Source: an uncultured Lachnospiraceae bacterium
GTDB lineage: Bacteria > Bacillota > Clostridia > Lachnospirales > Lachnospiraceae
DNA: 64,000 nucleotides
Direction: 5' to 3'
Assembly (NCBI GenBank): GCA_947565425.1
Contig: CANOFW010000010.1
Coordinates: forward strand, 1 to 64,000
Below the pieces are notes generated by a model. The model saw nothing but the letters and a program-made list of their open reading frames with translations, made no database searches and had not been told where the DNA came from. Below, in pieces: positions 44,741 to 64,000 of this stretch (its first letter is position 1; each line of letters begins with the position of its first letter). The translations under genes were made by a program, and so were the position numbers.

Positions 44741-46183
44741 ATGTCACTGTTTTCAGAAAACTTAAAAGAGTATGTGCAAAAGAGCCATATATCTGTCAGC
44801 AAATTGTCAGCAGAGACGGAAATTAGCCGAACATTGTTTCATAAATACCTTTCGGGAAACAGGATGCCGAAAAACAGTCAGGAAGTGAGGCGTATCGGCA
44901 GTGCAATGATGCTTTTACCCAGACAACAGGAAGATCTTCTGGAGTGTTATGCCAGAAGTACATATGGGGAAAAGAATTATGAGAGTTTTGGAAAGCTCAA
45001 GCATATGTTGGAAGGAATGTATGATTTTCGCCTGGAAAAGAGAAGAAGAATATTGGATATGGATATTGTAAAAAAGCTGTCTTTAATCAATGGAGAAGAG
45101 GCAGCTTCCTTTTATGGGCGTCTGCAAGTGGAAGATGCCTTGACACAGCTTTTATGGCTGGCAGCGGGAAAGAATCGCAAGGAATGTGTGAAGGTGAAAA
45201 TGATTATTCAGCCGGATCAGGACAATATCATAAATCCTATCCTGCGTATGAGTAGCCACCTGGATTTGGATCTGGAGCATATTGTGTGTCTGGACTGCAA
45301 TAAGAATGATAATGATAATATCGGGCTGCTGTTTTCCACGCTGGCATTTGAATTTGCCAGTACTGCGTATCAAAGTTATTTCTATTATGACAATATTATC
45401 TATCATGTCAATCAAATGAGCTTGCTGCCCAATATGCTGTTGGTTGGGGAATATGTGTTTTTGTGCAGCAATGAAGCAGATGAATGTTTGATTCTCCATC
45501 AGAAGACAGAAATAGAATTTTTCCGAAAAGAATATGAAAAAATGAAAAATTGCACGCAGAAATTAGGCATTATCAACCAGAGCGCGGAGGAATTGGCGGA
45601 GCTTATGAGCCTGGTGATGGAGAGTGGCATGGTTGATTTGCAGATAGGATGTTTCCCCTGTCTATTGGCAGCAATGGACGAGAAGATAATACAGCGGCAT
45701 TTGAGATTACAATCTCCAGCAATGGAGAAGGCCGTGCAGATGATAGGGGAAACATTTTCTCAATTGAAGGAAAAGAGACAGTTCCGAAATTATTTTTCGG
45801 AGGCAGGACTGCGTAAGTTTATGCAAAATGGGATCATTCAGGGATACCCTTCTGATATTTTTCTGCCGTTTACAGCACAGGAACGGATGGTAATTCTCAA
45901 GCGTTTGCTATGGCTTTTGAAATCAGGGAGCTTATCTTATTATATGGCAAGGGAAAGCAGGCTTCGTATGGATGATGCGGTTGTCATATATGCCAGTCGG
46001 GGAGGGGATGTGAATTTCTGGTGTAAAAGTGGGGCATATGGAAAAACAATTATGGTGAAAGAGACAAGTATCGTGGAGAACATTCATCGTTTCATTGATT
46101 ATGCAGTGGAAAATGACTGGTTTTACAGTAAGCAAGTAACCATCGAGTGTATAGAGCAGATGATCATAGAATACTCCATGTGA
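44741..46183 (+). CDS. HTH-containing regulator of the secretion-type cluster
   Basis: 480-residue cytosolic protein. ATG 44741 has AGGAGG 4 bases further upstream; a longer start at 44720 is less likely. The N-terminus is a lambda-repressor-like HTH (YVQKSHISVSKLSAETEISR then TLFHKYLSGNRMP, about residues 10-50). The remaining 400 residues are not recognised; they are mainly helical with no membrane segment. The gene is 135 bases before the protease-FHA gene and in the same direction. It likely senses something and controls the downstream operon; this is inference from position. Confidence 0.65.
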   Translation: MSLFSENLKEYVQKSHISVSKLSAETEISRTLFHKYLSGNRMPKNSQEVRRIGSAMMLLPRQQEDLLECYARSTYGEKNYESFGKLKHMLEGMYDFRLEKRRRILDMDIVKKLSLINGEEAASFYGRLQVEDALTQLLWLAAGKNRKECVKVKMIIQPDQDNIINPILRMSSHLDLDLEHIVCLDCNKNDNDNIGLLFSTLAFEFASTAYQSYFYYDNIIYHVNQMSLLPNMLLVGEYVFLCSNEADECLILHQKTEIEFFRKEYEKMKNCTQKLGIINQSAEELAELMSLVMESGMVDLQIGCFPCLLAAMDEKIIQRHLRLQSPAMEKAVQMIGETFSQLKEKRQFRNYFSEAGLRKFMQNGIIQGYPSDIFLPFTAQERMVILKRLLWLLKSGSLSYYMARESRLRMDDAVVIYASRGGDVNFWCKSGAYGKTIMVKETSIVENIHRFIDYAVENDWFYSKQVTIECIEQMIIEYSM

Positions 46184-46200
46184 TAGGTTTACAGAATTTT

Positions 46201-46240
46201 ACAAAATCTGACAAAATCTGTGTCACACTTTTTGTCACAG
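46201..46240 (+). promoter_or_regulatory. Direct-repeat cluster upstream of the secretion-type operon promoter
   Basis: ACAAAATCTG occurs twice in tandem (46201-46210, 46211-46220) and GTCACA twice, 12 bases apart (46222-46227, 46234-46239), ending immediately before the -35 box. This arrangement suits a transcriptional activator, possibly the product of the preceding gene. Confidence 0.5.
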
Positions 46241-46241
46241 G

Positions 46242-46271
46242 TTGTATTGGAGCGTGCAAGTGAAATATAAT
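46242..46271 (+). promoter_or_regulatory. Promoter of the protease/kinase/EssC operon
   Basis: TTGTAT (46242-46247), an 18-base spacer and TATAAT (46266-46271), 48 bases before the start of the protease-FHA gene. Confidence 0.65.
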
Positions 46272-46318
46272 TTTAAAAGGTTTGAAATAGATTACCCAAA
46301 GACGAAGGAGGAACAGAA

Positions 46319-48028
46319 ATGAAAAATGTAACCCTAAAAAGTCATATACGGGGCGCATTGGTGATTATGATGGCCTTGATATGTATCATATCAGGACTCA
46401 TGTCAGGACCAACGCTTCGCGTATGTGCAGAAACATCACAGGCAGTCACAGAGGCGCGAAATGGCGTTTTGCGTGTGGATCTGCTGTATGTGGATAAAGA
46501 TAACAATGAGTTTCTTTTAGGAAGTGGAAGCGGTTTTCTGATTAACAATGACACGATCATTACATGCGCGCATGTGGTGAACCTTTCTAATGAGAACGTA
46601 GAGAAGGCGAATGAAGCGATTGGCAACGGTTTTAAGAAAAATTATAAAGACCGTCTGAAAATCCGCGTTGTGGTTATGCGTGATGTTTATGTATATGCAA
46701 CGATAAAGAATCAGAGCGAACAGACAGATTTTGCAATTTTGAGTCTGAGTGATGCAATTTATGACCGTGAGCCGCTAACATTAGACATCACCGATACGAT
46801 TGATTCTACTATGCAGGTGTATGCGCTCGGGTTCCCGGCAGCTCCTGAGTATTATCAGAATGTAAACAAATATACATATGATGATGTCAGCGTGACCGAC
46901 GGTAAGGTGACGAAACTTTCGACCATTGGCAATGTAGATATGATCCAGCACAGCGCGGCGTTGAGTGAAGGAAACTCTGGCGGCCCGTTAGTGACCGACG
47001 CGGGTTATGTTGTAGGTGTTAATAATGCTACCGTGGATAATACATATTATTATGCAATCACCATCAATCAGATTGTCGACGCTTTGAATGCGCTCGGTAT
47101 AGAGTATACGACCAGTGATGGTAGTACGGCAGGAAATACCGACGAAGGCAGCCCGGAGGGAGAAACCGGCGAAGCCGAAGAGCCGGCGCCGGCGGAAGAT
47201 GATAACGGAACGGCGGAGGCAGAGCCAGAGCCCAGCGTGGAAGCGGCAGATAAAACGGCATTAAGCAGTGCGATCAGTGAAGCAAAGGAGAAAGACCAGA
47301 GCGGTTATTCCGAGGAGTCCGTTGCCAATCTCAATGAGTTGATTAGCGAGGCCGAAGAAGTAAGCGCCAACGAGCAGGCGACGCAGATTGAAGTGGACGG
47401 CGTAGAGGGAAGACTTCGCGCAGCCATGGATGCTTTAGTGGAAAAACAGTCTGGATTGGACATGAAACTTATCATTATTATCGTTGCCGTGGTTGTGCTC
47501 GTTTTGGTTGTTGTTCTGATTATTGTCTTGATGGGCAGCAAGAAAAAGAAAACACCGCCGCAGGGAATGACATCGTCGAACATGCATCCAGGACAGCCTG
47601 CGGGTGGGCCAGCATCGCCGAACAATGCACCGAGACCGCCTTTTGCACAGCCTGACGCTGGAGGTAACGGAGAGACCACGGTATTAAGCGCAGGGGCAGG
47701 AGAGACAACCGTATTAGGCGGCGGCGCCACACAATCTTCGGCAAAACTGATTCGTGTTAAGACGGGTGAGAACATTCCTATAAACAGAGCAGAGTTTACG
47801 ATCGGTAAGGAAAAGAGCCGGGTAAATTATTGTATCACTGGAGATAGTTCTATAAGCAGAAGCCATGCAAAGATTTCTGTGAACGGCGGCGAGTATGTAA
47901 TTACGGATATGCGCTCTACAAACGGAACCTTTGTAAATGGGGTTAAAGTAGAATCCGGACATCCGACGGTATTGAAAAATGGTGACAAGGTAGTGTTATC
48001 AGAAGAAGAATTTGAATTTCGGATGTAA
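46319..48028 (+). CDS. Extracellular trypsin-like protease joined by one membrane segment to a cytosolic FHA domain
   Basis: 569 residues. Signal/anchor at 13-38, then an HtrA-like serine protease domain outside: His85 (TCAHVV), Asp137 (QTDFAIL), Ser220 (GNSGGPL), with no PDZ. An acidic Glu/Pro-rich stretch and a short helical FIVAR-like segment (about 315-375) follow, then a strong membrane segment (about 381-406) and KKKK stop-transfer. Inside are two GETTVL motifs (451-456 and 461-466) and a C-terminal FHA domain (about 480-569) with ISRSHAKI and STNGTFVNG. The FHA binds phosphothreonine in known families. AAGGAGG 7 bases before the ATG. First gene of the cluster whose later genes encode PP2C, kinases and EssC. 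Confidence 0.88.
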   Translation: MKNVTLKSHIRGALVIMMALICIISGLMSGPTLRVCAETSQAVTEARNGVLRVDLLYVDKDNNEFLLGSGSGFLINNDTIITCAHVVNLSNENVEKANEAIGNGFKKNYKDRLKIRVVVMRDVYVYATIKNQSEQTDFAILSLSDAIYDREPLTLDITDTIDSTMQVYALGFPAAPEYYQNVNKYTYDDVSVTDGKVTKLSTIGNVDMIQHSAALSEGNSGGPLVTDAGYVVGVNNATVDNTYYYAITINQIVDALNALGIEYTTSDGSTAGNTDEGSPEGETGEAEEPAPAEDDNGTAEAEPEPSVEAADKTALSSAISEAKEKDQSGYSEESVANLNELISEAEEVSANEQATQIEVDGVEGRLRAAMDALVEKQSGLDMKLIIIIVAVVVLVLVVVLIIVLMGSKKKKTPPQGMTSSNMHPGQPAGGPASPNNAPRPPFAQPDAGGNGETTVLSAGAGETTVLGGGATQSSAKLIRVKTGENIPINRAEFTIGKEKSRVNYCITGDSSISRSHAKISVNGGEYVITDMRSTNGTFVNGVKVESGHPTVLKNGDKVVLSEEEFEFRM

Positions 48029-48038
48029 GTAAAAATCA

Positions 48039-48128
48039 GGGGCTGCCGCAATAAGCGAGAAGCAGATGACAGTTTTTGCAGATCGTCACGATTTACAGGC
48101 TGTACGCTTCAACTTAATGCGACAGCCC
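48039..48128. repeat. 90-bp inverted-repeat element related to the 34911 element
   Basis: Ends GGGGCTGCCGCAATAAG (48039-48055) and CTTAATGCGACAGCCC (48113-48128) form terminal inverted repeats that match the ends of the 191-bp element at 34911. It is inserted between the protease-FHA gene and the phosphatase gene, and supplies spurious upstream codons to the latter. Confidence 0.65.
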
Positions 48129-48152
48129 TTGCAATTAAGAAATGGAGTGTTT

Positions 48153-48920
48153 ATGGATTTTATAGCAGAAGCACATACAGATGTGGGCATAAAGAAGAAG
48201 ACAAACCAGGATTCTATTCTCATCCAGATGGCGGATACAACAGCCGGAAAAGTGGTGTTTGCAGCGGTATGTGACGGAATGGGAGGGCTTGCGAAAGGCG
48301 AGGTGGCAAGCGCTAGTTTGATCCGGGCGTGCGCATCCTGGTTCCAGGAGGTTTTCCCTGTGCTCTTAGACCAGGGCATAGAAGAAGAGACATTAAAGGA
48401 AAGCCTGGAAACGGTGATTCGGGATAAAAACAACCATATTATGGAGTATGGCAGAACGTCAGGTGTCAGTTTGGGAACTACGGTAGTATTACTGTTAATT
48501 GTAAAACGGCGGTATTATATTTTGAATGTTGGAGATTCGCGCGTTTATAAGATAACCGACAGTGTGCGGCAGTTGACGAAGGACCAGACGTTTATCCAGC
48601 GAGAAATGGATATGGGAAGAATGACCCCGGAGCAGGCAAAAACGGACCCACAGAGAAATGTTTTATTACAGTGCGTTGGCGCGGGCGATTACTTGGAACC
48701 TGATTTTTACAGCGGCGAGGTTGCAGCGAGAGAAAATTATATGCTTTGTTCCGATGGGTTCCGCCATATTATAACGGAGGAGGAACTCTTTCAATACCTA
48801 AACCCACAAGCGGCGAATACAGAACAGACGATGAAGGAGTGTATGAAATATCTGACGGATTTAAATAAATATCGTAGAGAGCAGGATAACATATCGGTTG
48901 TCCTGATTCATACATACTAG
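48153..48920 (+). CDS. PP2C-type Ser/Thr protein phosphatase
   Basis: 255 residues, full PP2C length, no membrane segment. Metal-binding motifs: NQDS near residue 18, VCDGMGG, GDSRVYK, CSDGF, and a closing EQDNISVVL. It would dephosphorylate the targets of the neighbouring kinases (PrpC/PrkC-type pair). ATG 48153 with GGAG upstream; the longer reading from 48066 is made from the inverted-repeat element. Eleven bases separate it from the kinase gene. Confidence 0.92.
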   Translation: MDFIAEAHTDVGIKKKTNQDSILIQMADTTAGKVVFAAVCDGMGGLAKGEVASASLIRACASWFQEVFPVLLDQGIEEETLKESLETVIRDKNNHIMEYGRTSGVSLGTTVVLLLIVKRRYYILNVGDSRVYKITDSVRQLTKDQTFIQREMDMGRMTPEQAKTDPQRNVLLQCVGAGDYLEPDFYSGEVAARENYMLCSDGFRHIITEEELFQYLNPQAANTEQTMKECMKYLTDLNKYRREQDNISVVLIHTY

Positions 48921-48931
48921 GGGGAACAATC

Positions 48932-50644
48932 ATGCTGGAGATAGGATCTGTTATAGATGGAAAGTACAAGATTTTAAATAAGGTCGGGCAGGGAGGCATG
49001 AGCGTCGTCTACCTTGCAATGAATGAGCGGGCAAACAAGCAGTGGGCAATCAAAGAGTTGCGCAAGGACGGTACAAGTGAATACGATGTAGTCAAACAGG
49101 GGCTGATCGCGGAGACCGATATCCTAAAGCGTCTGAGTCATCCCAATTTGCCCAGTATCATAGATGTGATTGACCGGGATGACACGTTTTTGATTGTCAT
49201 GGATTATATAGAGGGAAATCCTTTGAGTAAGGCGCTGGAACATTATGGAGCGCAGAATCAGGAGGACGTTATCGCGTGGGCAAAACAATTGTGCGATGTT
49301 CTAGGATATCTTCATTCGCGCAAGCCGCCGATTATTTATCGGGATATGAAGCCCTCTAATGTTATGTTAAAGCCCGATGGGAAAGTGACGCTGATTGACT
49401 TCGGTACGGCGCGAGAGTTTAAGGAAACAAGCGTGGAAGATACAAAATGTCTGGGCACACAGGGCTATGCGGCGCCGGAGCAGTATGGAGGTCATGGGCA
49501 GACAGATGCAAGGACGGATATTTATTGCCTTGGCGCAACCCTATATCATCTTGTTACCGGGCATAATCCATGCCAGCCGCCCTATGAAATGTATCCAATT
49601 CGCTATTGGAATCCGGCATTGTCCTCTGGGTTAGAGCAGATCATTGCCAAATGTACCCAGAGGAATCCGCAAGACCGTTACCAGTCCTGCGAAGAGCTTT
49701 TGTATGATTTAGAGAATTATGAAACCTTAGACAGCGAATACCAAAGGGCAGAAAAAAGAAAATGGAGCATGTTTCTTGCCTCTGGTTTTCTGACAGTGGC
49801 AGCATGTTTGGGCGCGGTGGGGTTCCATGTTGCGGCAAGCGCGGAGACGAGGAATAGTTATGACGCTTATCTGACGGCAGCGTCTGTGGCGGAGAGTGAG
49901 CAGGCAATGGAGTATTTCAGCAGTTCCATCAATTTAAAGCCTTCCGATGAGACGGCGTATCAAGCCATGCTTGCTTATATGTTGAATGATAATCAGATTA
50001 CAAGTGAGGAGGATGAGAATCTTCGCGCCATTTTTAATGAGACAAATGGTACGTCGAGATCAAACATTGAATATCTGAGACTGAATAATACGGATGCGTA
50101 CGAAGCCTTCGCCTATGAGCTGGGAAATGCTTATTTTTATACTTATCAGGAAGCGAACCGCAAGGCAAAAGCACAGAAATGGTTTGAAGTGGCGGCTGCC
50201 TCCACTTCCTTGGACAAGAAAAAGGCTGCGCGGGCGGAATGCCTCGGAAAAATAGCCTCTTATTCGGCAACGCTGGGGGTAAAGAATGAGGCGGGGGACG
50301 CTTCCACCACTTATTATGACTATTGGCTGGATATCACCTCTTTGCTGGGAAGCGATACGCTTTCTGCGGATAACAATGTCACTGCGCTGAGAACGTATAA
50401 AGATTTTGTCTACAATGTCTTTACCTATATGCAAGATTTTAAGGAAGCGGGGATTACTAAGCGTGATATCTCATCACAATTAAGCGCCGTCAGCACGGCG
50501 GTGGAAGCGATATCTGTAGATGCTGCCAATTCCGTGGAGGTAAAGTTAAAACAGGATATCGCGGAATACATAGAACAAGCGTTACAGACCATGGAATCAC
50601 TGTATTTTGATACAGCCGATACGCCACAGAAGGAGGAGCCATGA
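48932..50644 (+). CDS. Transmembrane Ser/Thr protein kinase with extracellular TPR-like part
   Basis: 570 residues. Kinase domain about 1-265: Gly loop GQGGMSVVY, Lys41 (AIKEL), catalytic loop YRDMKPSNVM, LIDFGTA, GTQGYAAPEQY activation segment; all catalytic residues present. One membrane segment (about 283-305), then a helical external domain (about 310-565) with no PASTA repeats. Known PknB/PrkC kinases use PASTA repeats outside, so this sensor part differs. The stop overlaps the next gene by 4 bases. Confidence 0.92.
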   Translation: MLEIGSVIDGKYKILNKVGQGGMSVVYLAMNERANKQWAIKELRKDGTSEYDVVKQGLIAETDILKRLSHPNLPSIIDVIDRDDTFLIVMDYIEGNPLSKALEHYGAQNQEDVIAWAKQLCDVLGYLHSRKPPIIYRDMKPSNVMLKPDGKVTLIDFGTAREFKETSVEDTKCLGTQGYAAPEQYGGHGQTDARTDIYCLGATLYHLVTGHNPCQPPYEMYPIRYWNPALSSGLEQIIAKCTQRNPQDRYQSCEELLYDLENYETLDSEYQRAEKRKWSMFLASGFLTVAACLGAVGFHVAASAETRNSYDAYLTAASVAESEQAMEYFSSSINLKPSDETAYQAMLAYMLNDNQITSEEDENLRAIFNETNGTSRSNIEYLRLNNTDAYEAFAYELGNAYFYTYQEANRKAKAQKWFEVAAASTSLDKKKAARAECLGKIASYSATLGVKNEAGDASTTYYDYWLDITSLLGSDTLSADNNVTALRTYKDFVYNVFTYMQDFKEAGITKRDISSQLSAVSTAVEAISVDAANSVEVKLKQDIAEYIEQALQTMESLYFDTADTPQKEEP

Positions 50645-51093
50645 GCCAGGCAGAGAATTTAATCAGTTTATACCAGACAGGTTTTAAGATTTGTGCAGTG
50701 CTGGCAGTCTTGTTCCTGATTCTGACGGTGGTGTTGTTTTTCAAGTTTCATATCCGAAATACGATTGCCAGCCGTACCGGGCGTGCTCGGCGAAAAACGA
50801 TCGAGCAAATGCGGGAGGCAAACGAACGGACGGGACGTTTGAAGTATGCGGGGAAGGTGGCAATGGGCGAGTATACGCCGCTGTCTTTGCATGAGGAAAA
50901 AACAGCGCAAACACAAAGCGCCGAAAAGCAAAGCGGCAAGCTGCAAATGGAAGAGACAATGCCTCTTGTTGCCTCACAGGAGGCGAATGCGAAAGGCGCG
51001 CCCATCAGGGGCAGGAAAGGAAAGAAGTCTCATACGGGAAAATTTGTGATAACCAAAGAAGTGCTGCTTATCCATACGGATGAGTGGATTTAG
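50641..51093 (+). CDS. Small single-span membrane protein with Thr motifs
   Basis: 150 residues, no recognised family. ATG overlaps the kinase stop (ATGA) and has AAGGAGG upstream. One membrane segment (about 15-37) is followed by a basic cytosolic part. GEYTPL (Thr79) and EETMPL (Thr106) recall the ETTVL-type phosphothreonine motifs of FHA partners, so it may be a substrate of the adjacent kinases. The basic C-terminal third (RGRKGKKSHTGKF) ends in HTDEWI. Confidence 0.7.
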   Translation: MSQAENLISLYQTGFKICAVLAVLFLILTVVLFFKFHIRNTIASRTGRARRKTIEQMREANERTGRLKYAGKVAMGEYTPLSLHEEKTAQTQSAEKQSGKLQMEETMPLVASQEANAKGAPIRGRKGKKSHTGKFVITKEVLLIHTDEWI

Positions 51094-57100: not shown

Positions 57101-58197
57101 CAGAACCGGAGATTGAAATTACCAATGTAGACGATATGAACGCTTACAATGGAACGGTGGCGCCGGGCGTTACCTTCCATGACATCAACTGTGATGCGCA
57201 GAGCGTGAAAATCACTTTAAATGGGTACAAGCATGAGCCGCAGGATTTGACGGGAAGCATGTCAAGTGAAACGCATGGCGGCAGCGTGCAGTTGGAGGAT
57301 TTCGCTCATACGACAGAGATGGACGACGTCTATACGCTGACGGCACAGGTGACGGATTTGGCTGGAAACAGCAAGGAAGTATCAAAGGTATTCTCGGTCA
57401 ACCGTTATGGCTCCAATTACATATTAAGTAAAGATACCAACAAGCTAGTGAATGATTATTATGCGAATCAGGAAGAAGATCTCGTCATTCATGAGGTCAA
57501 TGTAAGCTCTCTGGAGACCGAAGGCATTACATGCAGCCGCGACGGTGAGCTGGTGAAACTGGAAGAGGGACAGAACTATGAGATAAAAGATGAAGGAACG
57601 GAATATGCCTCCTGGAAAGAGTACACCTATACGGTTTATGCAGATAACTTTGCAGAGGAAGGTTCTTATATGGTAACCGTTCTTTCTACCGATACAGCGA
57701 AAAACAGCATGACGAATCGTACGGCTAAGGCCAAGGAGTATGCGAAGGAAGTTGAGTTTGTCATTGATAAGACGGCACCCACTAGCGTTATTTCTGGTGT
57801 GGAGAACAATAAGCAATATGTGGAAGCAAAGCACGAAGTGAAGATTGACAGTCAGGATAATATTGCAATTGACAGCGTGGAAGTGTATATGAACGACAAA
57901 GGTACGCCAGTTGCAACCTGGAGTCAGCAAGAGCTTGCAGAAAATGACGGCATTATGAGCTATGTACTTAACGCGGCACCTCACTGGCAGAATCTGCGTG
58001 TAGTTGCATTAGATAAAGCAGGAAATCGCTCTGAGAGTGATACCATTCGCTGTCTGCTGACAACCAATATCCTGGTACAGTTCTATAATAACCGGATTCT
58101 GTTCTTTGGAACGCTCTTTCTATTGGCGGCAGCTGCAGGCTTCGGTTACTGGTTACTGTTTGTAAAGCGCAGGAAAGCGCAAAAGCAGGAAAAATAA
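51124..58197 (+). CDS. Giant membrane-anchored repeat protein with Ig-like modules
   Basis: 2357 residues. Signal peptide 1-36 ends VVRAEEE. C-terminal membrane segment about 2319-2345 followed by KRRKAQKQEK anchors it in the membrane with almost the whole chain outside. Module A carries YGYYF near residues 293, 794, 1048 and 1553, then SGLKSISYRL-like and KGQIYVYATD-like strands. Module B carries KERNF or variants near 549, 1302, 1807 and 1916. Many modules close with IDKTxPEI-like strands, typical of Ig-like surface folds. No LPxTG. It sits between the kinases within the operon, so it is probably a structural or adhesive part of the system. Function not known. Confidence 0.8.
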   Translation: MKKRQWMKSKRFISLVLACLLVVSIIPWGDLVVRAEEEAFSITLQEEGGIGVVSDISIKEPQQVSPEDGSLADGKISGIPAGAKVTFHVAPEAGKYLEKVVSRKPIEGTPPDVSAGNVVTTQDGFAIEESVTVEQDGSGLYKVTMEEVTENLTLVCYYGELREEADAASYFTIKAVDSTSQESETYPAFGQAVDGKYYAKSGFFLCPAEGMKLKMEGEDSFSSEKRSYPEGNITTFFAQTTAGGSNFKKVSLKQPGVFLQLDSAAPEINEITFSGTGASESIWSKDSVVETTYGYYFQDSTTLHIKAEDNASGIHAITCRLENIDGSQATEVIEAGEGQEFALQVAKNFKGRIYIMAEDNVGNQSAEIQPAGVIVEDETNHESHAKITIDLPDTDCRDAQGHNLYQNDITIPLTVKDTYAGLKKIEWSLTVPSGEETEEIVQEGTIDIDNTGNLSGNTDGWNIVQEDNNLVTELNKELVVDRNENNITLNVTLTDRTDRETPGKETFSIDKTLPEITVTYNEGDSADSSADESNSRFYKNTREAVVTVKERNFQEDAENLSVSKALEEAGVTISEWKNEDGLSGISDEAKHTCTVTFPGDSAYRFSLAVTDLAGNQQTYQADGAADIFTVDQTAPVLSTDIEILPTDADNAKEYRQSAPEAITWYNQDVKFSFTAQDSVSGLYRVTSHDAQGVDGKLSNHVDETYELTDYSVDGVAYGKQGEVTEQKFTEAATAGEGTYQLAIEAMDYAGGETKKESGVIGVDKTAPKISRIVFSSAEESEDDWKDDSIEKTSYGYYFKEATTVKVYAEDAASGLKSISYRLKDVADTQEREYQTLIPQKDVQSGRDYVEVDIAANFKGQIYVYATDQVENQSGVIHPSGIIVENEDHHKGDAAIEVKMPEPSYQTTSGELFYHQDRINIPITVRDSYAGIQKVEWKLTYEGEDSTGNQSGAIEIGNDGNMPDESHGWEKKFYEDNLITEMAKTLTVTEAGNNILLEVILTDRAGNQTIETKRFHVDRTAPTIRGVTFSGSGHAESEWDHASVDQTDYGYYFREKTDVTVQAEDTSSGVKSITYRFVDINGTEKKETKNVDAKNQITFTIPAEFKGQIFVHATDHVANVSHELQTDGLIVESKRHHEENTKISLTMPQTFYEDAKKQKLYNNDINVPITVSDSYTGIRKVEWSVTSGTDKANNQSGVIEISNDGTLSGDSKDWNIRGEDENLITELAREITVRNNSNDIKLYVKLTDRAGHTTEREEIFSIDKTEPEISVSYNKKESPSTSVDNHYKEFYNQEREAQITVKERNFDEEQAEIILKKAFINAAVEISDWKSQDKLGGISDSAAYTCTITYQGSSAYNFSMHVTDLVGKEKTYHTDGTSDIFMVDKGKPSLNKENFKVTPQDRATARKYVDGQNVTWYNQNVDFSFTAKDSCSGLYQVSTSAVTMGELSGKFRRNINKTYPLEDYRIQENDYGKRGQVEEQSYVVATATGKNKSDKYRLLVEAADYAGNASDMQSKIIGIDMEKPKITGITFTGVGNQDSSWKSVTTVDSEDYGYYFRETATVKITATDVNANGSSGLKSISYRLEDIKDKAERKFVTPRLQTEGEEQFITFTVPEGFKGQIYAYATDNVGNQGNTEQPDGTVKESAQQAAEARIEITSPETSYQDAEGRPLYAKDTTFHLVVEDVHAGLRKIEWSVESEEDSDSNQTGTVDIDNNGSLSNGDWKVTARDENLVTKMERDLTVRNNSNHISLKVTLTDRAGNVTEYNDGRGLVFSIDKTQPQINVTYLENDASHEKYYNKDRTAVITVTERNFDEEATNRQIQISNTDGSIPAYGTWSHGGESGTDRATHTCTITYAADGDYTFTMTATDKAQNSAVYGNTDEFTIDQTKPEIDVSYSTADLSNGIYYKDECVATVTVKEHNFDDAGVVFTQVAELDGQTISAPVSGGWSSNGDVHTATIHYNIDGDYTLSVACEDMAANEAENYTGTKFVVDMTEPEIEITNVDDMNAYNGTVAPGVTFHDINCDAQSVKITLNGYKHEPQDLTGSMSSETHGGSVQLEDFAHTTEMDDVYTLTAQVTDLAGNSKEVSKVFSVNRYGSNYILSKDTNKLVNDYYANQEEDLVIHEVNVSSLETEGITCSRDGELVKLEEGQNYEIKDEGTEYASWKEYTYTVYADNFAEEGSYMVTVLSTDTAKNSMTNRTAKAKEYAKEVEFVIDKTAPTSVISGVENNKQYVEAKHEVKIDSQDNIAIDSVEVYMNDKGTPVATWSQQELAENDGIMSYVLNAAPHWQNLRVVALDKAGNRSESDTIRCLLTTNILVQFYNNRILFFGTLFLLAAAAGFGYWLLFVKRRKAQKQEK

Positions 58198-58273: not shown

Positions 58274-58323
58274 TGCGCATCTAATGGAGAGGCTGTCACA
58301 CGAATATGGAAAGGGGGCGTCAG

Positions 58324-60222
58324 ATGGAACGCGGGCAGATTGTAGGGCAGATTTACCAGATTGTAGAGGAAATCGGCAACGGCGGGACAGGAGTGATTTA
58401 TAAAGCGTACCATCTGCGCCTGGAAAAGTATGTGGTCATCAAGAAGATTAAAGACAATTTCTGTATGCCTGTCAGTATGCGGTGGGAGGCAGACATCTTA
58501 AAGAAGTTACATCATACCTGTCTCCCTCAGGTGTACGACTTTATTCAGCAGGGAGGCCAGGTGTTCACGGTCATGGAATATATTGACGGCTGTGATTTGG
58601 AGTATTATCTGCGGCAGGGGATCTTTTTCCAGCCGCAGCAGCTTCTAGCCTGGCTTCGCGAGCTGTGTAGTGTTTTGGTGTATCTCCATTCTCAGAATCC
58701 GCCCATTTTGCACAGTGATATTAAACCCGCCAATATTATGGTCACGGCAGAAGGGCAGATTTATCTGATTGATTTTAATATATCCTTCGGGCTAGAGGAG
58801 GAACAAGATATCTTAGGCATTAGCCAGCATTATGCTGCGCCGGAGCAGGCATATCGGGCAAACTACTATGTGGCGACAGGAAGGGCAGAAAATTTTGTCT
58901 TGGATGGACGCATGGATTTGTACAGTCTGGCGGCAACGTTTTACGCTTTAATCTGTGGCATGCCTCCAAGTATGGATTACGAGACGAATATCCCGCTGGG
59001 GGCTATGCAGTTACCGCAGTTTTCACCATCGTTTCTGCATGTGATTGACAAAGCCATGCAGGTAAATCCCCAAGATAGGTATCCTACGGCAAAGCAAATG
59101 TATGCGGCGTTAGTGGATTTGCGAAAGCTGGATGTACGTTATCGTAAACTGCGTTTGGGGCAGGTCGCGGCGACTACGGGGTATGCCGTGTTGTTTATGA
59201 TTTCCGTAGGACTTATTTTTCACGGCATAAAGACGCAGACACGGGAAAATTTTCAGAAGGATTATGAAATTTTTTATGATGCAGTAAATCAGGAAAATGA
59301 GGAACAGATTTTAAATCAAGGGTTGTATATTCTGAATAAAGAATCTTATCAGGCAATATTGGAGAAACAGTCGGAGGAAACAGCCGCGATATTCCATGCT
59401 GTTGGCAGTTATTATTATGAGCTGGAGGATTATGGAAACGCCAGCGTCTATTATGAAAAAGCGGCGGAGACGGCGGAGGGAAGCGCGCGGGCAGATTACA
59501 GTCGCGATTATGCAATTGCTTTGGCCAAGGAAGGGCGAATGGAAGAGGCACAGTACATGTTGCAGCAGTCGCAAGAGATTGGACTGAGCAGTGTAGATGC
59601 AAGCTATATTCGGGCCGAGATTGCATATGAGATGCAGGAGTATGAACAAGCATCCAAAGAGGCACAGGCGGTATTGGAAGGAAACGCAGACCCCTGGTTA
59701 TGCCAGAAGGCATATATGTTGAAAGCGGATGCTGCAAAGGCCGAAGGAGATTATCAGGGACAAATTACCTGTCTGGAAGAGGCAAAGAACCTGGGGGAAA
59801 AGAACCTGGTACTGCAAAAGCTGGGAGCGGCATATGTGGATGCAGCAAGGCAAACACAAGGTACGACGGCGGCCAGAGAGTATTATAAAAAATCATTGGA
59901 AATTTATAAACGTTTGGCGTCCATGGCTTATCCCTCTGTGGAAGATCGGATAAATCTGGCGATTGTCTATCTACAGCTTGGTGAGAGTTATCATGGTCAA
60001 AAGATCTTACTCTCGTTGACAGAAGAACATGTATCGGATTATAGAGTTTGGATGTATTTGGCGTTTGCTTATGAGCAGGATGGGGATGCGGCAAGGATGA
60101 AATATTGTTGCGAGGAGGCTGTTAAATATTATGAAAGCGCTGGTATGTCCAAAGAGGAAGAGGTAAGCGGACAGGTCGCTCATTTATATGAATTATATGA
60201 AAGGACTGGTGAACGAAAATGA
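58324..60222 (+). CDS. Second transmembrane Ser/Thr kinase-like protein with TPR repeats
   Basis: 632 residues. ATG 58324 is used (AAGGGGG 6 bases upstream). Kinase fold about 8-265: GNGGTGVIY loop, Lys40 (VVIKKIK), catalytic loop HSDIKPANIM (HSD in place of HRD, but the catalytic Asp and Asn kept), LIDFNIS where DFG is DFN, and YAAPEQAY. One membrane segment (about 279-300) is followed by an extracellular TPR-rich part (about 310-625). The altered HRD/DFG motifs make reduced or altered activity possible. EssB of type VIIb systems is also a kinase-like membrane protein, but this one has a complete kinase domain. Confidence 0.85.
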   Translation: MERGQIVGQIYQIVEEIGNGGTGVIYKAYHLRLEKYVVIKKIKDNFCMPVSMRWEADILKKLHHTCLPQVYDFIQQGGQVFTVMEYIDGCDLEYYLRQGIFFQPQQLLAWLRELCSVLVYLHSQNPPILHSDIKPANIMVTAEGQIYLIDFNISFGLEEEQDILGISQHYAAPEQAYRANYYVATGRAENFVLDGRMDLYSLAATFYALICGMPPSMDYETNIPLGAMQLPQFSPSFLHVIDKAMQVNPQDRYPTAKQMYAALVDLRKLDVRYRKLRLGQVAATTGYAVLFMISVGLIFHGIKTQTRENFQKDYEIFYDAVNQENEEQILNQGLYILNKESYQAILEKQSEETAAIFHAVGSYYYELEDYGNASVYYEKAAETAEGSARADYSRDYAIALAKEGRMEEAQYMLQQSQEIGLSSVDASYIRAEIAYEMQEYEQASKEAQAVLEGNADPWLCQKAYMLKADAAKAEGDYQGQITCLEEAKNLGEKNLVLQKLGAAYVDAARQTQGTTAAREYYKKSLEIYKRLASMAYPSVEDRINLAIVYLQLGESYHGQKILLSLTEEHVSDYRVWMYLAFAYEQDGDAARMKYCCEEAVKYYESAGMSKEEEVSGQVAHLYELYERTGERK

Positions 60223-60326
60223 CAGGGACATCTTATATCGTGGCTGGGATTGTGTTGTTGTTAGTTTCCACAAGCATATTTTTATTGCTGCTGTTTTTGC
60301 TTCATCGGTGGGGAAAGACATTTTAA
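60219..60326 (+). CDS. 35-residue single-span membrane peptide
   Basis: Short gene whose ATG overlaps the kinase stop codon (ATGA), followed 15 bases later by the next gene. The product is nearly all one hydrophobic helix (IVLLLVSTSIFLLLLFLL) with a short HRWGKTF basic tail. The tight coupling and clean transmembrane pattern support a real small protein. Confidence 0.6.
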   Translation: MTGTSYIVAGIVLLLVSTSIFLLLLFLLHRWGKTF

Positions 60327-60341
60327 GGAAGGTAAAATTTC

Positions 60342-61910
60342 ATGGATAACAAAAGAAGGACGCTGGTAATCTGTATCATTAGTGCATTGCTTGTGATTTG
60401 CAGCGGAACGGTAGTTTTGTGTTTTATGTGGGCGGGCGATGCAGCTACAACACTTGAAAAACAGATTCAGACGGCTGACATGTATTATGCCAAGGGCGAT
60501 TATGAGCATGCAGTCATTGCTTATCAGGCGGCAATTGAGGAAGATAAGACGGATGAAAAACCTTACCAGAGGTTGACAATGATTTATTTATCGCAAAATG
60601 AGATGACGCTGGCACAAAATGTATTAAGTATGGGAATTACCAATACATCTTCGCCCAGGCTTATAGAGATGTGGAAGGTTTATTTTGGTGATGACGTACA
60701 AGTCGCGCAGGGGGAAGAAACAGAAGATTCCAAGGAAACGGTCGCAGAGATGACAGTGAACTGGCGTCTGCTTTCTGAAATCGCAGCGGCGACGTATCAT
60801 GATTGTCAAATAAAGTATGGAGAGCCTTCGATTAGTCAAAAGGACCAGGTGTGTACGGTGACTTATGGAAAGACAGGGATTTCCTATCGGTATTATAATA
60901 CATCGGATAATAGCAACGTGGTGGATCAAACGCTGGGACGTCCGTACGATATGGCAAAAGCCAAAGAAGTCTCATTGGATAATCTTTCGCTTTTATTTGG
61001 AGGGATGGAAGATAGTTTGGACTATCAGACCTTGTCACAGCTTGATGTGCGGAAATTGAAAAAAGGCTATGACAAACAACTGAAACGCTATGTCGTCAGT
61101 TTCCTCTGTGGAAGCTGTAATGTTATGGTGGAAAGCGATGAAAACGGAAATATCACCTCTTGCAATGCCTGGAATAAGATTACGCCAGCACAAGCGGACG
61201 AGGAAGAGAAAGAATTTCCGGTGGAAGCACAGGTTTTGGATGCGACAACCGGCGCAGGCGTTTTGGGGGCTATTGTAAATGTGCGCGCAGAGGATGACCA
61301 GACCGGAGAAATTCTTGCACAGACAGAGACGGATGCAGACGGATTTTGTGAGGTAGATTTGTTAAGCGGTTATTATCTGGCAGAGATTAAGATGGAAGGC
61401 TATATTACGGAATATTTTGAAATATATGTAGATCCTGTTGGTGATACGGAAAACTTACAGTTTGTCATCTCACCTACGGTAGAGAGCGGTCAGATCCGCA
61501 TTGTCCTGGAATGGGGAAGTTCTCCCGCAGACTTAGACTCCCATTTGGAAGGGACGTTATCAGACGGTACGGGGGTAAATATTTATTTTGCAAATCAGAC
61601 GTTATCCAAGAACGGAGAAGATCTGGTATCGCTGGATGTGGATGATACCCGCGGATATGGGCCGGAGACGACCACCATCAATGACAGCGGCGGAAATTAT
61701 CATTTCTATGTACTTGATTACCGGCAGGAGGGGACGCTGGGAATTAATGGGGCGACGGTAAAGGTTTACATGCCGGGAGAGAAAGCGCCAGTTGTGATAG
61801 AAGCGCCGTCGGATGTGGTGAACGTCTGGGATGTGCTGAATATTGACGCTGGTGTATTAACTGTGAATAACCGCGCCGGGGAGTCAGACACCGAACAGGG
61901 CGCAAAGTAA
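60342..61910 (+). CDS. Membrane-anchored TPR protein with carboxypeptidase-regulatory-like and YfaP-like domains
   Basis: 522 residues. An N-terminal membrane anchor (about 7-29) leads outside to a short TPR region (about 40-110). An unrecognised domain (about 140-280) follows. A CarboxypepD_reg-like beta domain covers about 285-375 (EAQVLDATTGAGVLGAIVNV, GYITEYFEI). A YfaP/DUF2135-like beta domain at the end shows IVLEWGSSPADLDSHL and the DVDDTRGYGPETTTI pattern. AAGGAAGG precedes the ATG. Likely part of an extracellular assembly; exact role unknown. Confidence 0.7.
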   Translation: MDNKRRTLVICIISALLVICSGTVVLCFMWAGDAATTLEKQIQTADMYYAKGDYEHAVIAYQAAIEEDKTDEKPYQRLTMIYLSQNEMTLAQNVLSMGITNTSSPRLIEMWKVYFGDDVQVAQGEETEDSKETVAEMTVNWRLLSEIAAATYHDCQIKYGEPSISQKDQVCTVTYGKTGISYRYYNTSDNSNVVDQTLGRPYDMAKAKEVSLDNLSLLFGGMEDSLDYQTLSQLDVRKLKKGYDKQLKRYVVSFLCGSCNVMVESDENGNITSCNAWNKITPAQADEEEKEFPVEAQVLDATTGAGVLGAIVNVRAEDDQTGEILAQTETDADGFCEVDLLSGYYLAEIKMEGYITEYFEIYVDPVGDTENLQFVISPTVESGQIRIVLEWGSSPADLDSHLEGTLSDGTGVNIYFANQTLSKNGEDLVSLDVDDTRGYGPETTTINDSGGNYHFYVLDYRQEGTLGINGATVKVYMPGEKAPVVIEAPSDVVNVWDVLNIDAGVLTVNNRAGESDTEQGAK

Positions 61911-61929
61911 ATAGTTGAGGTTGACGTAT

Positions 61930-62481
61930 ATGGAATGGTATGTAATCACCATACTTCTTGCTCTGCTGGCAGTTTTGCTTGTGGCGCTGCTTATTGTTGT
62001 CTGTGTACGCAGATATCGTGATAAAAAAGAAATGGAAAAATATTATGAAGCAGCCAGACAGATGGTAAAGGAAGAAAGTCTGAATTATTCCTTGAAAAAC
62101 CCTTATCTCAAGTCTTGCGCTATAACGGCGCGCAGCCCGCAAAAAATTATGCTCTATGTAAAGTTTATCAAGAGCAATGAAAAGGGCGGTGTGATCTTTG
62201 ACCCGGAGAAGGTGGTTATTTTCGGAAGGCAGAAGGAACAAGTATCTGTTTGTATTAACGAAGCCGTCGTGTCTTCTAAGCATTGCCAGGTTTATTTGAG
62301 CGGCGGCGAAATCTGGCTGGAAGATATGAATTCTGCCAATGGGACATGCCTGATTCGCAAGAGAAAGGAATACCGTTTGTCGCCAGGTTATCCTATCATG
62401 TTGGCAGACAAGGACGTCTTGCATGTAGGAAGCAGATATTTTCAAATACAGATGTTCTATTATGATATGACAATGATGTAG
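61930..62481 (+). CDS. Membrane-anchored FHA-domain protein
   Basis: 183 residues. One N-terminal membrane segment (about 4-27), a short linker, then a cytosolic FHA domain (about 95-175): VIFGRQKEQVSVCINEAVVS, SKHCQVYL, and NSANGTCLI. The Gly-Arg and Ser-x-x-His positions that contact phosphothreonine are both present. ATG 61930 has TGAGG 9 bases upstream; an in-frame TTG at 61915 is the alternative. It directly precedes essC by 11 bases. Confidence 0.82.
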   Translation: MEWYVITILLALLAVLLVALLIVVCVRRYRDKKEMEKYYEAARQMVKEESLNYSLKNPYLKSCAITARSPQKIMLYVKFIKSNEKGGVIFDPEKVVIFGRQKEQVSVCINEAVVSSKHCQVYLSGGEIWLEDMNSANGTCLIRKRKEYRLSPGYPIMLADKDVLHVGSRYFQIQMFYYDMTMM

Positions 62482-62492
62482 GAGGAAAGGCC

Positions 62493-64000
62493 ATGATATT
62501 GATGATATACCAGAAAGATTCTTTTAAAGAATATCTGTTGCCCAATGGAAATAATATGAACTATTCTATCCGGTTGGAGAAAGAGATTTTTCATCTCAAG
62601 AAAGACATCGAACTCTGTCTGGATATTACGCAGAATCAATGGAATATCAAAGAAAGCCCGCAATATATATTAGTTTCAGACGGTAAAATATATAAGCATA
62701 AACAGCTTGCACAGGAAGAAATTTTACATATAAAAACAGAGGACAAAGAGCAGTTAGATGTGATTGCTGTAGCGCACAGCCCCGTTTTTCCCATCTTTCA
62801 GAAATACGATATTTCCCGTATGGTGGAGATTACGGTGGGCAAAGATGAGGGGAATATGATTTCTTATCAGTTTATGACGCTGGTATCGCAGAATCATTGC
62901 CGTATTGTCAAAGAAAACGGCTCCTTTTATGTGATAGACAGCAGTTCAAACGGAAGTTTCAGCAATGGCAGACGCATAAAGAAACAGCGTTTGGAATTTG
63001 GAGACGTCATCAATATTTTTGGACTGAACATTTTGTTTCTGGACGGTATTCTGGGCGTTGCTGCCCATTATGGGGAAGCAGTGGTAGACCAAAAATATCT
63101 AAAACCCATAAAACCGGAACAAGTGGAAGAAAAGAGGCGGGAAGACGTTGGCAATGCGGCAACGGTGGAAGACAGGAATTATAACAGGCCGCCGCGTTAT
63201 CTGCCGTCAATTAACCGAGAGAGCGTTGAAATCGAGGAACCGCCCAGCTTGCAGCACACTAAACAAAAACCTTTGATTTATACGATTGGACCGTCTTTTA
63301 CCATGGCGTTGCCGATGATGTTAGGGTGCGGCTTCTCTTTTCTCAGTACCCAGATGTCGGGCAGAACGTCCGGTGCATTTATGTTTACCGGAATCATTAC
63401 GGCGGTGGCCTCCGCTACGCTTGGCGTAGTGTGGGCGCTTGCCAATCTCAAATATGCACAGCGCGAAGAGCGGGAAAATGAGCAGTCCAGGTTTAATGCT
63501 TACGGCAACTATCTCATTGAGACGGCCGACGATCTGAAGGCGAAATATGAGCAAAATGCTAATGCACTGCGCGATTTGTACCCTTCTTCCAAGCAATGTT
63601 GTTACTTTGACCGTAGTTCCAACCGTATATGGAACCGCAATGTATCACATGAGGATTTCTTATTCCAGCGTCTTGGGCTTGGCAATATTCCTTTCCAGGT
63701 ACAGATAAAGATACCGAAAGAGAAATTTAGTGTGCAGCAAGATCCCTTAAAACAGAAACCAGGTATCATTCAAAACGATTACCGTATGCTGGAAAATGTG
63801 CCGGTAGGCATTGATTTAAAGCAGTATCAGCTTTGGGGCATTGTAGGCGGTGCGGAGTCCAAAAGGACGATGAATATTGTCTATAATCTGGTGGCGCAGA
63901 TTGCCGCCAATAATTGTTATACGGATGTAAAGATGGTATTTATCTACGATGAACAAAAGCTAGGGGATAAAGAGGAATGGAGCTTTGTAAAGTGGCTGCC
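62493..64000 (+). CDS. essC: EssC-type type VIIb secretion ATPase, N-terminal third, cut by window edge
   Basis: Only the first 502 codons are in the window. GGAGG lies 7 bases before ATG 62493. Residues 1-80 look like the divergent first FHA of EssC. A clear second FHA covers about 95-185 (VTVGKDEGN, VSQNHCRIV, SSSNGSFSNGRRI). Two membrane segments are at about 263-288 and 296-320. Then comes the EssC-typical stretch: ALRDLYPSS, WNRNVSHEDFLFQRLGLGN, KIPKEKFSVQQDPL and ENVPVGIDLKQYQLWGIVGG. The FtsK/SpoIIIE ATPase domains with Walker motifs would follow beyond 64000. Family call is from motif order; this would be the motor of a type VII (Ess/Yuk) secretion system. Confidence 0.82.
   Translation, partial: MILMIYQKDSFKEYLLPNGNNMNYSIRLEKEIFHLKKDIELCLDITQNQWNIKESPQYILVSDGKIYKHKQLAQEEILHIKTEDKEQLDVIAVAHSPVFPIFQKYDISRMVEITVGKDEGNMISYQFMTLVSQNHCRIVKENGSFYVIDSSSNGSFSNGRRIKKQRLEFGDVINIFGLNILFLDGILGVAAHYGEAVVDQKYLKPIKPEQVEEKRREDVGNAATVEDRNYNRPPRYLPSINRESVEIEEPPSLQHTKQKPLIYTIGPSFTMALPMMLGCGFSFLSTQMSGRTSGAFMFTGIITAVASATLGVVWALANLKYAQREERENEQSRFNAYGNYLIETADDLKAKYEQNANALRDLYPSSKQCCYFDRSSNRIWNRNVSHEDFLFQRLGLGNIPFQVQIKIPKEKFSVQQDPLKQKPGIIQNDYRMLENVPVGIDLKQYQLWGIVGGAESKRTMNIVYNLVAQIAANNCYTDVKMVFIYDEQKLGDKEEWSFVKWL

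Follow-up and report, generated by a model that had tools for sequence, protein, structure and literature searches.

The type VII secretion subtypes T7SSc to T7SSj go back to Garrett, Higginson and Palmer (2024; PMC11217815). Several have a kinase, FHA proteins and a PPM phosphatase, and the authors suggested regulation by phosphorylation; in their main-text descriptions, to which all comparisons with these subtypes refer, I see no phospho-acceptor sites named for T7SSc–j. The subtypes most relevant here are T7SSe, in which a DUF6382-FHA protein (J) is stated for all loci and which includes a part, H, hitherto without an assigned role, and T7SSi, known from Vallitalea, with an ATPase bearing an N-terminal FHA domain of poor pThr conservation, a YukD-type protein and a LytR-like regulator called unique to that subtype (PMC11217815), which I take to be of the LytTR type.

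Genes of the Locus

The stretch of DNA considered (the window) comprises positions 1–64000 of a 93,348-bp Lachnospiraceae contig (C10), so that contig and window numbering are the same. Window gene calls and profile searches place ten genes, from an HTH regulator to the start of EssC, in a single run on the + strand; every gene listed in the initial annotation is present. The features of the window are:

44720..46183, + strand, HTH regulator, 487 aa (ATG at 44741; HTH_60 17.9 bits, below the cut-off of 24.1)
46319..48028, + strand, protease-FHA: extracytoplasmic trypsin-like protease, TM, cytoplasmic FHA, 569 aa
47672..47686, + strand, ETTVL motif 1 in the TM-FHA linker of protease-FHA (residues 452–456), predicted pThr acceptor/FHA ligand
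47702..47716, + strand, ETTVL motif 2 in the same linker (residues 462–466), predicted pThr acceptor/FHA ligand
48066..48920, + strand, PP2C/PPM phosphatase (F)
48932..50644, + strand, membrane Ser/Thr kinase 1 (D orthologue), AIKE/YRDMKPSN/DFG kept
50641..51093, + strand, H: single TM and cytoplasmic tail, 150 aa, C-terminus HTDEWI
50953..50967, + strand, ETMPL in H
51124..58197, + strand, I: giant Ig-like envelope protein, 2357 aa, signal peptide and C-terminal TM recognised by eye
58306..60222, + strand, membrane kinase 2, VIKK/HSDIKPAN/DFN, TPR-like C-terminus below the Pfam cut-off
60342..61910, + strand, TM-TPR-like protein, its TPR and carboxypeptidase-regulatory-like regions both below the Pfam cut-off
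61915..62481, + strand, TM-FHA reader directly upstream of EssC, GR/SSKH/NG
62493..64000, + strand, EssC ATPase, N-terminal part with FHA

Beyond the window the contig continues with:

to 67484, remainder of EssC
67481..68197, LytTR protein (LytTR 4e-19)
68181..68864, u227, 3' of the LytTR gene
68861..69145, YukD-like protein (PF08817 27.4 bits, cut-off 27)
within 69266..71370, five WXG100 matches
71454..72014, further TM-FHA protein
72031..72303, DUF4176
72342..73460, candidate substrate, 372 aa

The initial annotation had tied its secretion reading to Walker motifs in the protein cut at 64000 and to WXG100 genes close by. The reading survives on both counts: the sequence past 64000 contains GTTGSGKS within EssC, WXG100 genes lie less than 8 kb from 64000, and the YukD homologue also sought there is represented by the YukD-like protein. 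The full-length EssC, of 1663 aa, scores 1066.7 bits with TIGR03928 (cut-off 778.4), with FtsK_SpoIIIE (5e-50) and FHA (45.3 bits) domains. From its sequence, the locus almost certainly encodes a type VII secretion system.

A kit of phosphothreonine writers, eraser and readers had been claimed to lie beside the secretion motor, and this is borne out as far as conserved residues go: kinases 1 and 2 both keep K/D/N/D, the His/Asp/Ser triad of the trypsin domain is complete, and the FHA residues are those described below. The count of three FHA proteins, with EssC, is right for the window, and the TM-FHA protein beyond 64000 is a fourth.

Relation to T7SSb

EssC, YukD and WXG100 proteins are common to this locus and to T7SSb of S. 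aureus and B. subtilis, the combination of FHA and FtsK domains in EssC is a T7SSb trait, and TIGR03928 is the Firmicutes EssC model, all of which might suggest a canonical T7SSb whose EssB and EsaA have diverged. Both parts had been sought, and both models are silent in the genome concerned, which is 92.9% complete, a limit on these negatives: EssB (PF10140) gave no match there while the control matched in B. subtilis, and EsaA (TIGR03929) gave none while its control matched four named genomes including B. subtilis, one of them over the cut-off. EssB exceeds the cut-off in 9 of 200 genomes of the family, and the 19 genomes that carry this EssC type include none of these. Where T7SSb has the pseudokinase EssB, the locus has kinases with their catalytic residues, and its EssC falls outside the T7SSb clade, the two clades having support of 100/100 each. 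Canonical T7SSb is rejected on the silent models and the position of EssC, and its diverged form is highly improbable. The secretion reading is supported; the earlier label "type VIIb-like" is not, and of what was observed it alone is wrong.

Relation to T7SSe, T7SSd and T7SSj

The closest likeness in the signalling genes is with T7SSe. Counterparts of the TseD kinase, the TseF phosphatase, TseH and TseI are all present in the order F-D-H-I, as in the Neobacillus locus, to which they show homology; the Coriobacteriia MAG has D-H and I. The five WXG100 genes and the YukD-like gene correspond to TseA, TseA2 and TseB, with A and A2 not assigned among the WXG100 genes. A membrane kinase, a single-TM H and a giant Ig protein are common to the locus, T7SSe and T7SSd (PMC11217815); the PPM phosphatase, the F-D-H-I order and more than one WXG100 gene are common to the locus and T7SSe. 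Kinase 1 matches the kinase of the Coriobacteriia MAG at 43% and groups with it and two Clostridia kinases (SH-aLRT 98) in a kinase tree constructed without G597, G596, G595a, G595b, G601, G598, G010 and G001.

In contrast to T7SSe and T7SSd, the locus has no DUF6382-FHA protein, a LytTR protein, u227 and a second kinase are additional, and its EssC clade is separate in the free tree. DUF6382-FHA is confirmed in Neobacillus, while the sole match in the genome under study is on contig C6, in a region read as Tad-pilus; the J position is occupied by protease-FHA. Inspection without a K model recognised no separate single-TM protein like TseK at the locus. T7SSd is described from Actinomycetota only, which does not suit the locus: the EssC rows of two window-family genomes are identical to loci titled Lachnospiraceae. 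T7SSj, of the C. acetobutylicum type (PMC11217815), has in common with the locus a kinase with TPR-like C-terminus, PPM phosphatase, Ig protein, YukD and WXG100, but it has DUF6382-FHA and no H, whereas the locus has H and no DUF6382-FHA, and its EssC lies outside the TsjC clade. Membership by content in either T7SSe or T7SSj is rejected for want of DUF6382-FHA.

One might still regard the locus as a derived T7SSe, protease-FHA having replaced DUF6382-FHA. The gene order, the homologous H and I and the place of protease-FHA speak for this, as does an AU test that does not reject union with T7SSd/e and the genome's own second EssC (p-AU 0.105). The absence of J, given for all T7SSe loci (PMC11217815), a T7SSe part list without LytTR and u227, and EssC clades that lie apart in the free tree make it somewhat unlikely.

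Relation to T7SSi

Candidate T7SSi loci were those of f158, whose identity as Vallitaleaceae I infer from kinship and gene content. The order EssC-LytTR-u227-YukD is common to the locus and these candidates: each of the four f158 loci that were read shows it, with the LytTR model at 1e-50 to 1e-48 and the u227 model at 3e-8 to 2e-9. With T7SSi as published (PMC11217815) the locus also has in common an FHA-bearing ATPase of poor pThr conservation and a YukD-type protein, and its LytTR protein corresponds to the LytR-like regulator TsiN. A possible counterpart of TsiG, the EspG-like protein of T7SSi, u227 is homologous to the protein encoded in the same place at the candidate loci; Pfam and PDB profile searches give no sequence support for u227 as EspG-like, and a 39-residue PilT match (E 8e-4) was taken as chance. 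The F-D-H-I block, protease-FHA and TM-FHA are extra in the locus. Upstream of EssC, where the locus has TM-FHA, the candidates have a gene for a 442–503-aa protein with a C-terminal TM, presumably TsiM, and the part of their DNA that was read contains no match to the PP2C, kinase, H or Ig models.

The locus might be a T7SSi whose range extends from Vallitalea into the Lachnospiraceae and which acquired a general kinase/FHA kit as its neighbour. The common gene order, the regulator "unique to T7SSi" (PMC11217815), if of LytTR type, and an AU test that does not reject union with the candidate T7SSi and f150 rows (p-AU 0.272) favour this reading, against which stand the separation of the clades at 100/100 in the free tree, the lack of PP2C, kinase, H and Ig matches at the candidate loci, their different upstream gene and the indirect assignment of f158 to Vallitaleaceae. 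It is possible, but falls well short of probable.

EssC Trees and Subtype Status

The EssC of the locus lies in a clade of its own (support 100/100), mainly of Lachnospiraceae and distinct from the rows of b, d/e, f and j and of candidate T7SSi, and the genome's second EssC is sister to T7SSd/e. T7SSf forms a separate clade, and T7SSc is represented by a single row (G219, labelled from content), outside the clade of the locus; no row is known as T7SSg or T7SSh. This separation comes from trees of 38 and 32 rows, both chosen subsets, and also from one of 65 rows, before which G595a, G597, G598, G596, G601, G135 and L173 were removed because they duplicate other rows or are fragments; since G601 and L173 are one locus, that locus is absent from every EssC tree. 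The loci of Neobacillus mesonae and the Coriobacteriia MAG were typed from their genes, those of Cohnella, Paenibacillus and Clostridium cibarium mostly by EssC kinship. I take G750 to be C. acetobutylicum, partly on its two EssC loci, and "C. felsineum" for G753, like "T7SSc" for G219, is my own label from content. A plasmid search found distant EssC/EccC only, none spanning 80% of the query.

Neither the trees nor the AU tests fix the branching order between EssC clades. A rejection (p 8e-11) of the clade together with T7SSd/e was discarded as unfair because it omitted the second EssC, the sister of T7SSd/e; since the repeat with that row gave the p-AU of 0.105, I do not claim that the motor and the signalling block descended separately.

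The gene content fits none of the eight subtypes T7SSc–j as described in the main text of PMC11217815, and the locus probably represents a distinct, undescribed Lachnospiraceae subtype, on the evidence of its sequence. The suggestion that it was "not yet described" is right for the combination of genes; T7SS with kinase, PPM and FHA proteins, and the idea of phospho-regulation, were already published (PMC11217815).

Conservation of the Neighbourhood

Neighbours were counted at 21 loci whose EssC is of this type, of which 19 come from the family sample (200 genomes) and the others are G1050 and G1003, neighbourhoods having been fetched for only part of the EssC matches. G177, a fragment, was given no EssC type, and set aside were G132 throughout, G024 for TM-FHA, G051 for u227 and YukD, and G068 and G082 for YukD. 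YukD is found 3' of EssC wherever the contig extends far enough (17/17), LytTR at 16 of 20 loci, u227 at 15 of 19 and TM-FHA upstream of EssC at 12 of 19; four members of the EssC clade have neither LytTR nor u227. This association of genes exceeds chance. In both G136 and G002 an HTH regulator homologous to that of the window occurs close to the EssC locus. In G132 a TM-FHA-like fragment of 68 aa lies upstream.

The kinases, PP2C and FHA proteins could belong to general envelope signalling and adjoin the secretion genes by coincidence, as the family also has protease-FHA and FHA proteins with ETTVL linkers that do not lie near EssC. The DNA read at the 21 loci has PP2C in 12 and a kinase in 13, several contigs being short, the genes of the window form one run, and kinase, H and Ig protein adjoin EssC in both Neobacillus (with PP2C) and the actinobacterial Coriobacteriia MAG; coincidence is accordingly unlikely.

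FHA Domains and ETTVL/ETTLL Motifs

In the FHA domain of EssC, 18 rows of the clade are readable; ten of these show G-K and only two G-R, while the six T7SSd/e/j reference rows have G-R. TM-FHA upstream of EssC is canonical here and in four relatives, and five have lost pThr residues (G102 being partly readable and G002 outside the alignment).

Repeated ETTVL/ETTLL is found in the H tails of T7SSd/e loci and in the protease-FHA linker of the window. At least two clustered TTxL occur in 6 of 12 H-family proteins and in all four protease-FHA proteins that share a contig with EssC of this type; in shuffles of five protease-FHA rows, two motifs were reached in 7 to 22 of 5000. The TT form is gone from the H of the window, which has only ETMPL, and likewise from G172 and the kinase-H fusion of G051; the H C-terminus is HTEEVL in G136 and HTDEVL in G051. 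Five of 14 protease-FHA proteins have no ETTVL, and protease-FHA also shares contigs with EssC from other lineages (G190, G140), where the sequences that were read have one motif. Two ETTVL are present in six FHA proteins in which no trypsin domain was detected, one of them a fragment at the edge of a contig, from a locus with this EssC type. TTxL clusters as a T7SS-specific trait are weakened by such two-motif proteins elsewhere in the family, and because the motif occurs in other FHA proteins ETTVL/ETTLL is not T7SS-specific.

ETTSVF are the letters of the GarA/OdhI motif. The FHA-bound threonine in GarA, OdhI and DgcB has hydrophobic residues at +2 and +3, the rule including also Glu at −2, a hydrophobic residue at −3 and Ser at +1 (PMC6733907). 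Both ETTVL copies have the +2 and +3 hydrophobic residues and Glu close before, here at −1, and lack the −3 hydrophobic residue and +1 Ser. By this resemblance to known FHA ligands, the ETTVL/ETTLL of the protease-FHA linker and of relatives' H tails are candidate phospho-docking sites.

Proposed Mechanism and Its Meaning

The giant Ig protein would span the wall, and H would hold a disordered cytoplasmic tail next to kinase D. Kinase D, with kinase 2, may phosphorylate T-x-x-[LIV] threonines (ETTVL/ETTLL) in the protease-FHA linker here and in the H tails of relatives, and the phosphothreonines would be bound by TM-FHA and protease-FHA, perhaps also by EssC, through their FHA domains, keeping EssC at the envelope complex and secretion-competent until PP2C stripped the phosphates and released it. 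Sensing or conditioning of the envelope would fall to the protease domain and to the parts of the kinases outside the cytoplasm, and the LytTR protein would set transcription. Phospho-gating of secretion is what I infer from these parts, and the docking mechanism as a whole is plausible, if somewhat short of an even chance. An undescribed Lachnospiraceae subtype with proposed phospho-docking control is, by a little, the explanation I favor overall. More tentatively, the system may be a mosaic of a T7SSi-type motor block and a T7SSd/e-type F-D-H-I block, in which H and the protease-FHA linker would be multisite pThr tails docking EssC through FHA domains, a phosphorylation-controlled export clutch whose reader would also be coupled to an extracytoplasmic protease.

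How T7SS are switched outside mycobacteria and staphylococci is a standing question, and phospho-control of some of T7SSc–j was raised in 2024 (PMC11217815). The locus offers, in gut-type Lachnospiraceae, a combination outside the eight subtypes, and its named candidate acceptor sites and readers would make the idea of phospho-control addressable at the level of peptides. It joins the part lists of T7SSi and T7SSd/e, which bears on how subtypes arise from exchangeable modules.

Locus Content and Layout

The genome (3.36 Mb, 92.9% complete) contributes contig C10 of 93,348 bp, whose bases 1–64000 form the window. The recognised genes of the secretion locus run on past it, all on one strand, with gaps of fewer than 140 bases, or overlaps, between genes as far as EssC; the genes for EssC, the LytTR protein, an unassigned 227-aa protein (u227) and the YukD-like protein overlap one another. 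The features are as follows, in contig coordinates.

33580–34890: McrBC restriction component, upstream of the locus
36899–40114: PAS-GGDEF-EAL protein, upstream of the locus
44720–73460, + strand: recognised genes of the T7SS locus, in the order of the next three lines
In the window: HTH regulator, trypsin-like protease-TM-FHA, PP2C, kinase 1, 150-aa single-TM protein, 2357-aa Ig-like giant
In the window, continued: kinase 2 with TPR-like C-terminus, TM-TPR-like protein, membrane-anchored FHA (TM-FHA) protein, start of EssC
Past the window: remainder of EssC, LytTR protein, u227, YukD-like protein, WXG100 genes, another TM-FHA protein, DUF4176 protein, 372-aa candidate substrate
73457–75622, − strand (L002:11457–13622): pair of a GHKL histidine kinase and a LytTR response regulator, oriented towards the locus end
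91988–93286 (L003), contig end: integrase-like protein, by reading of the sequence letters

The GHKL/LytTR pair may act as partner to, or compete with, the LytTR protein linked to EssC. In profile searches, EssC (1663 aa) scored 1066.7 bits against TIGR03928 (cut-off 778.4) and 5e-50 against FtsK_SpoIIIE, and the five WXG100 matches in the whole genome all lie at this locus. With a full-length EssC of the FtsK/SpoIIIE type and WXG100 genes beside it, the reading of the locus as a secretion system is upheld against both refuting conditions set in the initial annotation. The 372-aa candidate substrate gave no LXG match in Pfam; I call it LXG-like from its helical start and neighbouring genes.

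The Locus Is Not T7SSb

The initial annotation had likened the locus to T7SSb, a label that must be dropped, since the models for EssB (PF10140) and EsaA (TIGR03929) found no match in the genome and its EssC belongs to a clade apart from that of T7SSb. In a sample of 200 genomes of the family, Lachnospiraceae, EssC matches (E 1e-30 or better) were found in 49 and EssB above its cut-off in 9. EssC of the type considered here is present in 19 genomes, this one included (18 taken from a 65-row tree and G135 by identity, with a fragment from G177 left out), none of which is among the nine with EssB. No EssC match was obtained in G161, the only sampled genome of the same genus, and the locus may therefore be gained or lost.

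Relation to Described Types

Types T7SSc to T7SSj were described by Garrett, Higginson and Palmer (2024; PMC11217815). In the available part of their account, T7SSe comprises a WXG100 pair, a YukD-like protein, an ATPase, a kinase (D), a PPM phosphatase (F), a single-TM protein (H), a giant Ig-like protein (I), a DUF6382-FHA protein (J) and a second single-TM protein (K). T7SSj resembles it but lacks H and carries TPR on the kinase. T7SSi, described from Vallitalea, is the only type with a LytR-like regulator. The same source already proposes threonine phosphorylation as a control of T7SS. The general idea of phospho-control is thus published, and the question that remains is whether this locus belongs to one of T7SSc to T7SSj. 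The string "Lachnospir" does not occur in the main text of that paper, and the matches listed in literature searches included no later paper applying its nomenclature to such a locus.

To place EssC, trees of 65 rows (quick) and of 38 and 32 rows (careful) were constructed, with type anchors assigned by gene content. Neobacillus mesonae (L144) served for T7SSe, having EssC, YukD, two WXG100 proteins, DUF6382-FHA, PP2C, a kinase, a single-TM protein and an Ig giant. A Coriobacteriia MAG (L189) with an Ig protein, EssC, a kinase and H, and no YukD match, served as T7SSd-like. G750, which I take to be C. acetobutylicum ATCC 824, anchored both T7SSf and T7SSj, and genomes of another family (f158), with a C-terminal-TM protein, EssC, LytTR, a u227-like protein and YukD, were candidate T7SSi. 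The EssC rows of the present type form one clade (100/100), apart from T7SSb, T7SSd/e, T7SSf, T7SSj and candidate T7SSi, which have clades of their own (98–100). The trees do not settle the branching order between clades: constraining the present clade with candidate T7SSi and family f150 gave a p-AU of 0.272, and constraining it with T7SSd/e and the second EssC of the same genome gave 0.105.

That second EssC (1546 aa; C25:34763–39091, loci L070 and L071) has a YukD-like protein, PP2C and a 717-aa kinase nearby. It is sister to the T7SSd/e rows (100/100), with no obvious fit to any named type, and its FHA domain retains GR/SRRH/NG. Another arrangement, which I could not place in any named type, is found at L132–L135 (G449, G355), where an EssC with no detected N-terminal FHA has two kinases, at least two FHA proteins and PP2C close by.

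Gene order points in two directions. The order EssC-LytTR-u227-YukD is shared with four candidate T7SSi loci, and the order PP2C-kinase 1-H-Ig with Neobacillus, except that the protease-FHA protein occupies the place of the Neobacillus DUF6382-FHA. The small TM protein aligns to H from Neobacillus at 22% and to its counterpart in the Coriobacteriia MAG at 30%. In a kinase tree, kinase 1 clusters with the kinase of that MAG and with two from Clostridia (SH-aLRT 98). DUF6382 itself, found in 195 of the 200 family genomes, has a single match in this genome, on another contig and adjoining genes read as a Tad-pilus set. Judged by its genes, the locus appears to combine T7SSi-like and T7SSe-like blocks, and the combination is new.

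The two blocks recur to different extents among the 21 loci with this EssC type (Table). A vWA-TM-FHA protein is present in other members of the clade (confirmed by Pfam in the four scanned: G002, G183, G153, G1050). Taken with the protease-TM-FHA protein, an extracytoplasmic domain linked across the membrane to FHA therefore recurs in the clade.

Table. Recurrence of genes among 21 loci with EssC of the present type.
YukD: 17 of 17 testable
LytTR: 16 of 20
u227: 15 of 19
TM-FHA upstream of EssC: 12 of 19
Protease-FHA on the EssC contig: 4 of 21 (own, G136, G172, G051)
H on the EssC contig: 4 of 21 (the same four)
Ig giant: 5 of 21 (own, G136, G172, G082 at a contig end, G1050 weakly)

ETTVL/ETTLL Motifs as Candidate FHA Ligands

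Both kinases retain the active-site Lys, Asp, Asn and Asp. In G051 (L064), a single 442-aa reading frame encodes both H and a kinase 1 that has lost the extracytoplasmic domain; this fusion supports the view that kinase 1 and H may work together. The tail of H is inferred to be cytoplasmic, on the same side as the kinase domain, because basic residues follow the TM segment.

H tails carry ETTVL/ETTLL repeats. Six of the 12 proteins of the H family have a cluster, defined as at least two TT[VILMF][LFVI] within 60 residues (G136, 2 motifs; G556, 5, a protein assigned to H by position rather than by model; Neobacillus, 4; Coriobacteriia, 7; L145, 2; L204, 5). None is present in H of the present genome, which has ETMPL only, or in H of G172, the G051 fusion, L142, L159 and G693. 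Among 79 named loci (1414 ORFs), eight proteins have clusters: four H, two EssC and two hydrophobic membrane proteins. In a separate set of loci, scanned first, the matches outside H were four EssC (three in P-loop stretches) and one membrane protein.

The protease-FHA protein of the window has two ETTVL motifs between TM and FHA. Its orthologues have two as well: those sharing a contig with EssC in G136, G051 and G172, that of G082 on a different contig, and that of G010, away from EssC. So does a contig-edge fragment of an FHA protein in G135. Shuffled sequences of five protease-FHA rows attained two motifs in 7 to 22 of 5000. The FHA-bound threonine of DgcB, GarA and OdhI is described, in the part of the source available, as having hydrophobic residues at −3, +2 and +3 (the last crucial), Glu at −2 and Ser at +1 (PMC6733907). 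Counting from its first Thr, ETTVL matches at +2 and +3 and has Glu at −1 instead.

Several observations, on the motif and on the FHA domains, weigh against the proposed docking of FHA domains on these motifs. Among 14 trypsin-FHA proteins in 30 loci, six have two motifs, two have one in the linker, one has it only at the TM edge and five have none; six FHA proteins of these loci have two motifs and no detected trypsin domain. In G190 and G140, protease-FHA proteins share a contig with an EssC from another lineage, and those read have a single motif. The motif is a wider feature of the family's FHA proteins, and such linkers, seen at L278–L306 with the protease domain present or absent, are perhaps a wider FHA ligand code.

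The FHA domain of EssC keeps Ser and His in all 18 readable rows of the clade and Asn-Gly in 17. The arginine position differs: 10 of these rows read G-K, 2 read G-R and 6 have other residues, whereas the six T7SSd/e/j rows used for reference read G-R. Because that arginine is largely replaced in the clade, EssC may be a weak reader or a non-reader. The TM-FHA protein upstream of EssC is canonical in the present genome, G153, G082, G051 and G136; it has lost pThr residues in G068, G172, G135, G183 and G011, is partly readable in G102 and lies outside the alignment in G002. The ETTxL tails, as candidate FHA ligands, are a new and testable element of the locus.
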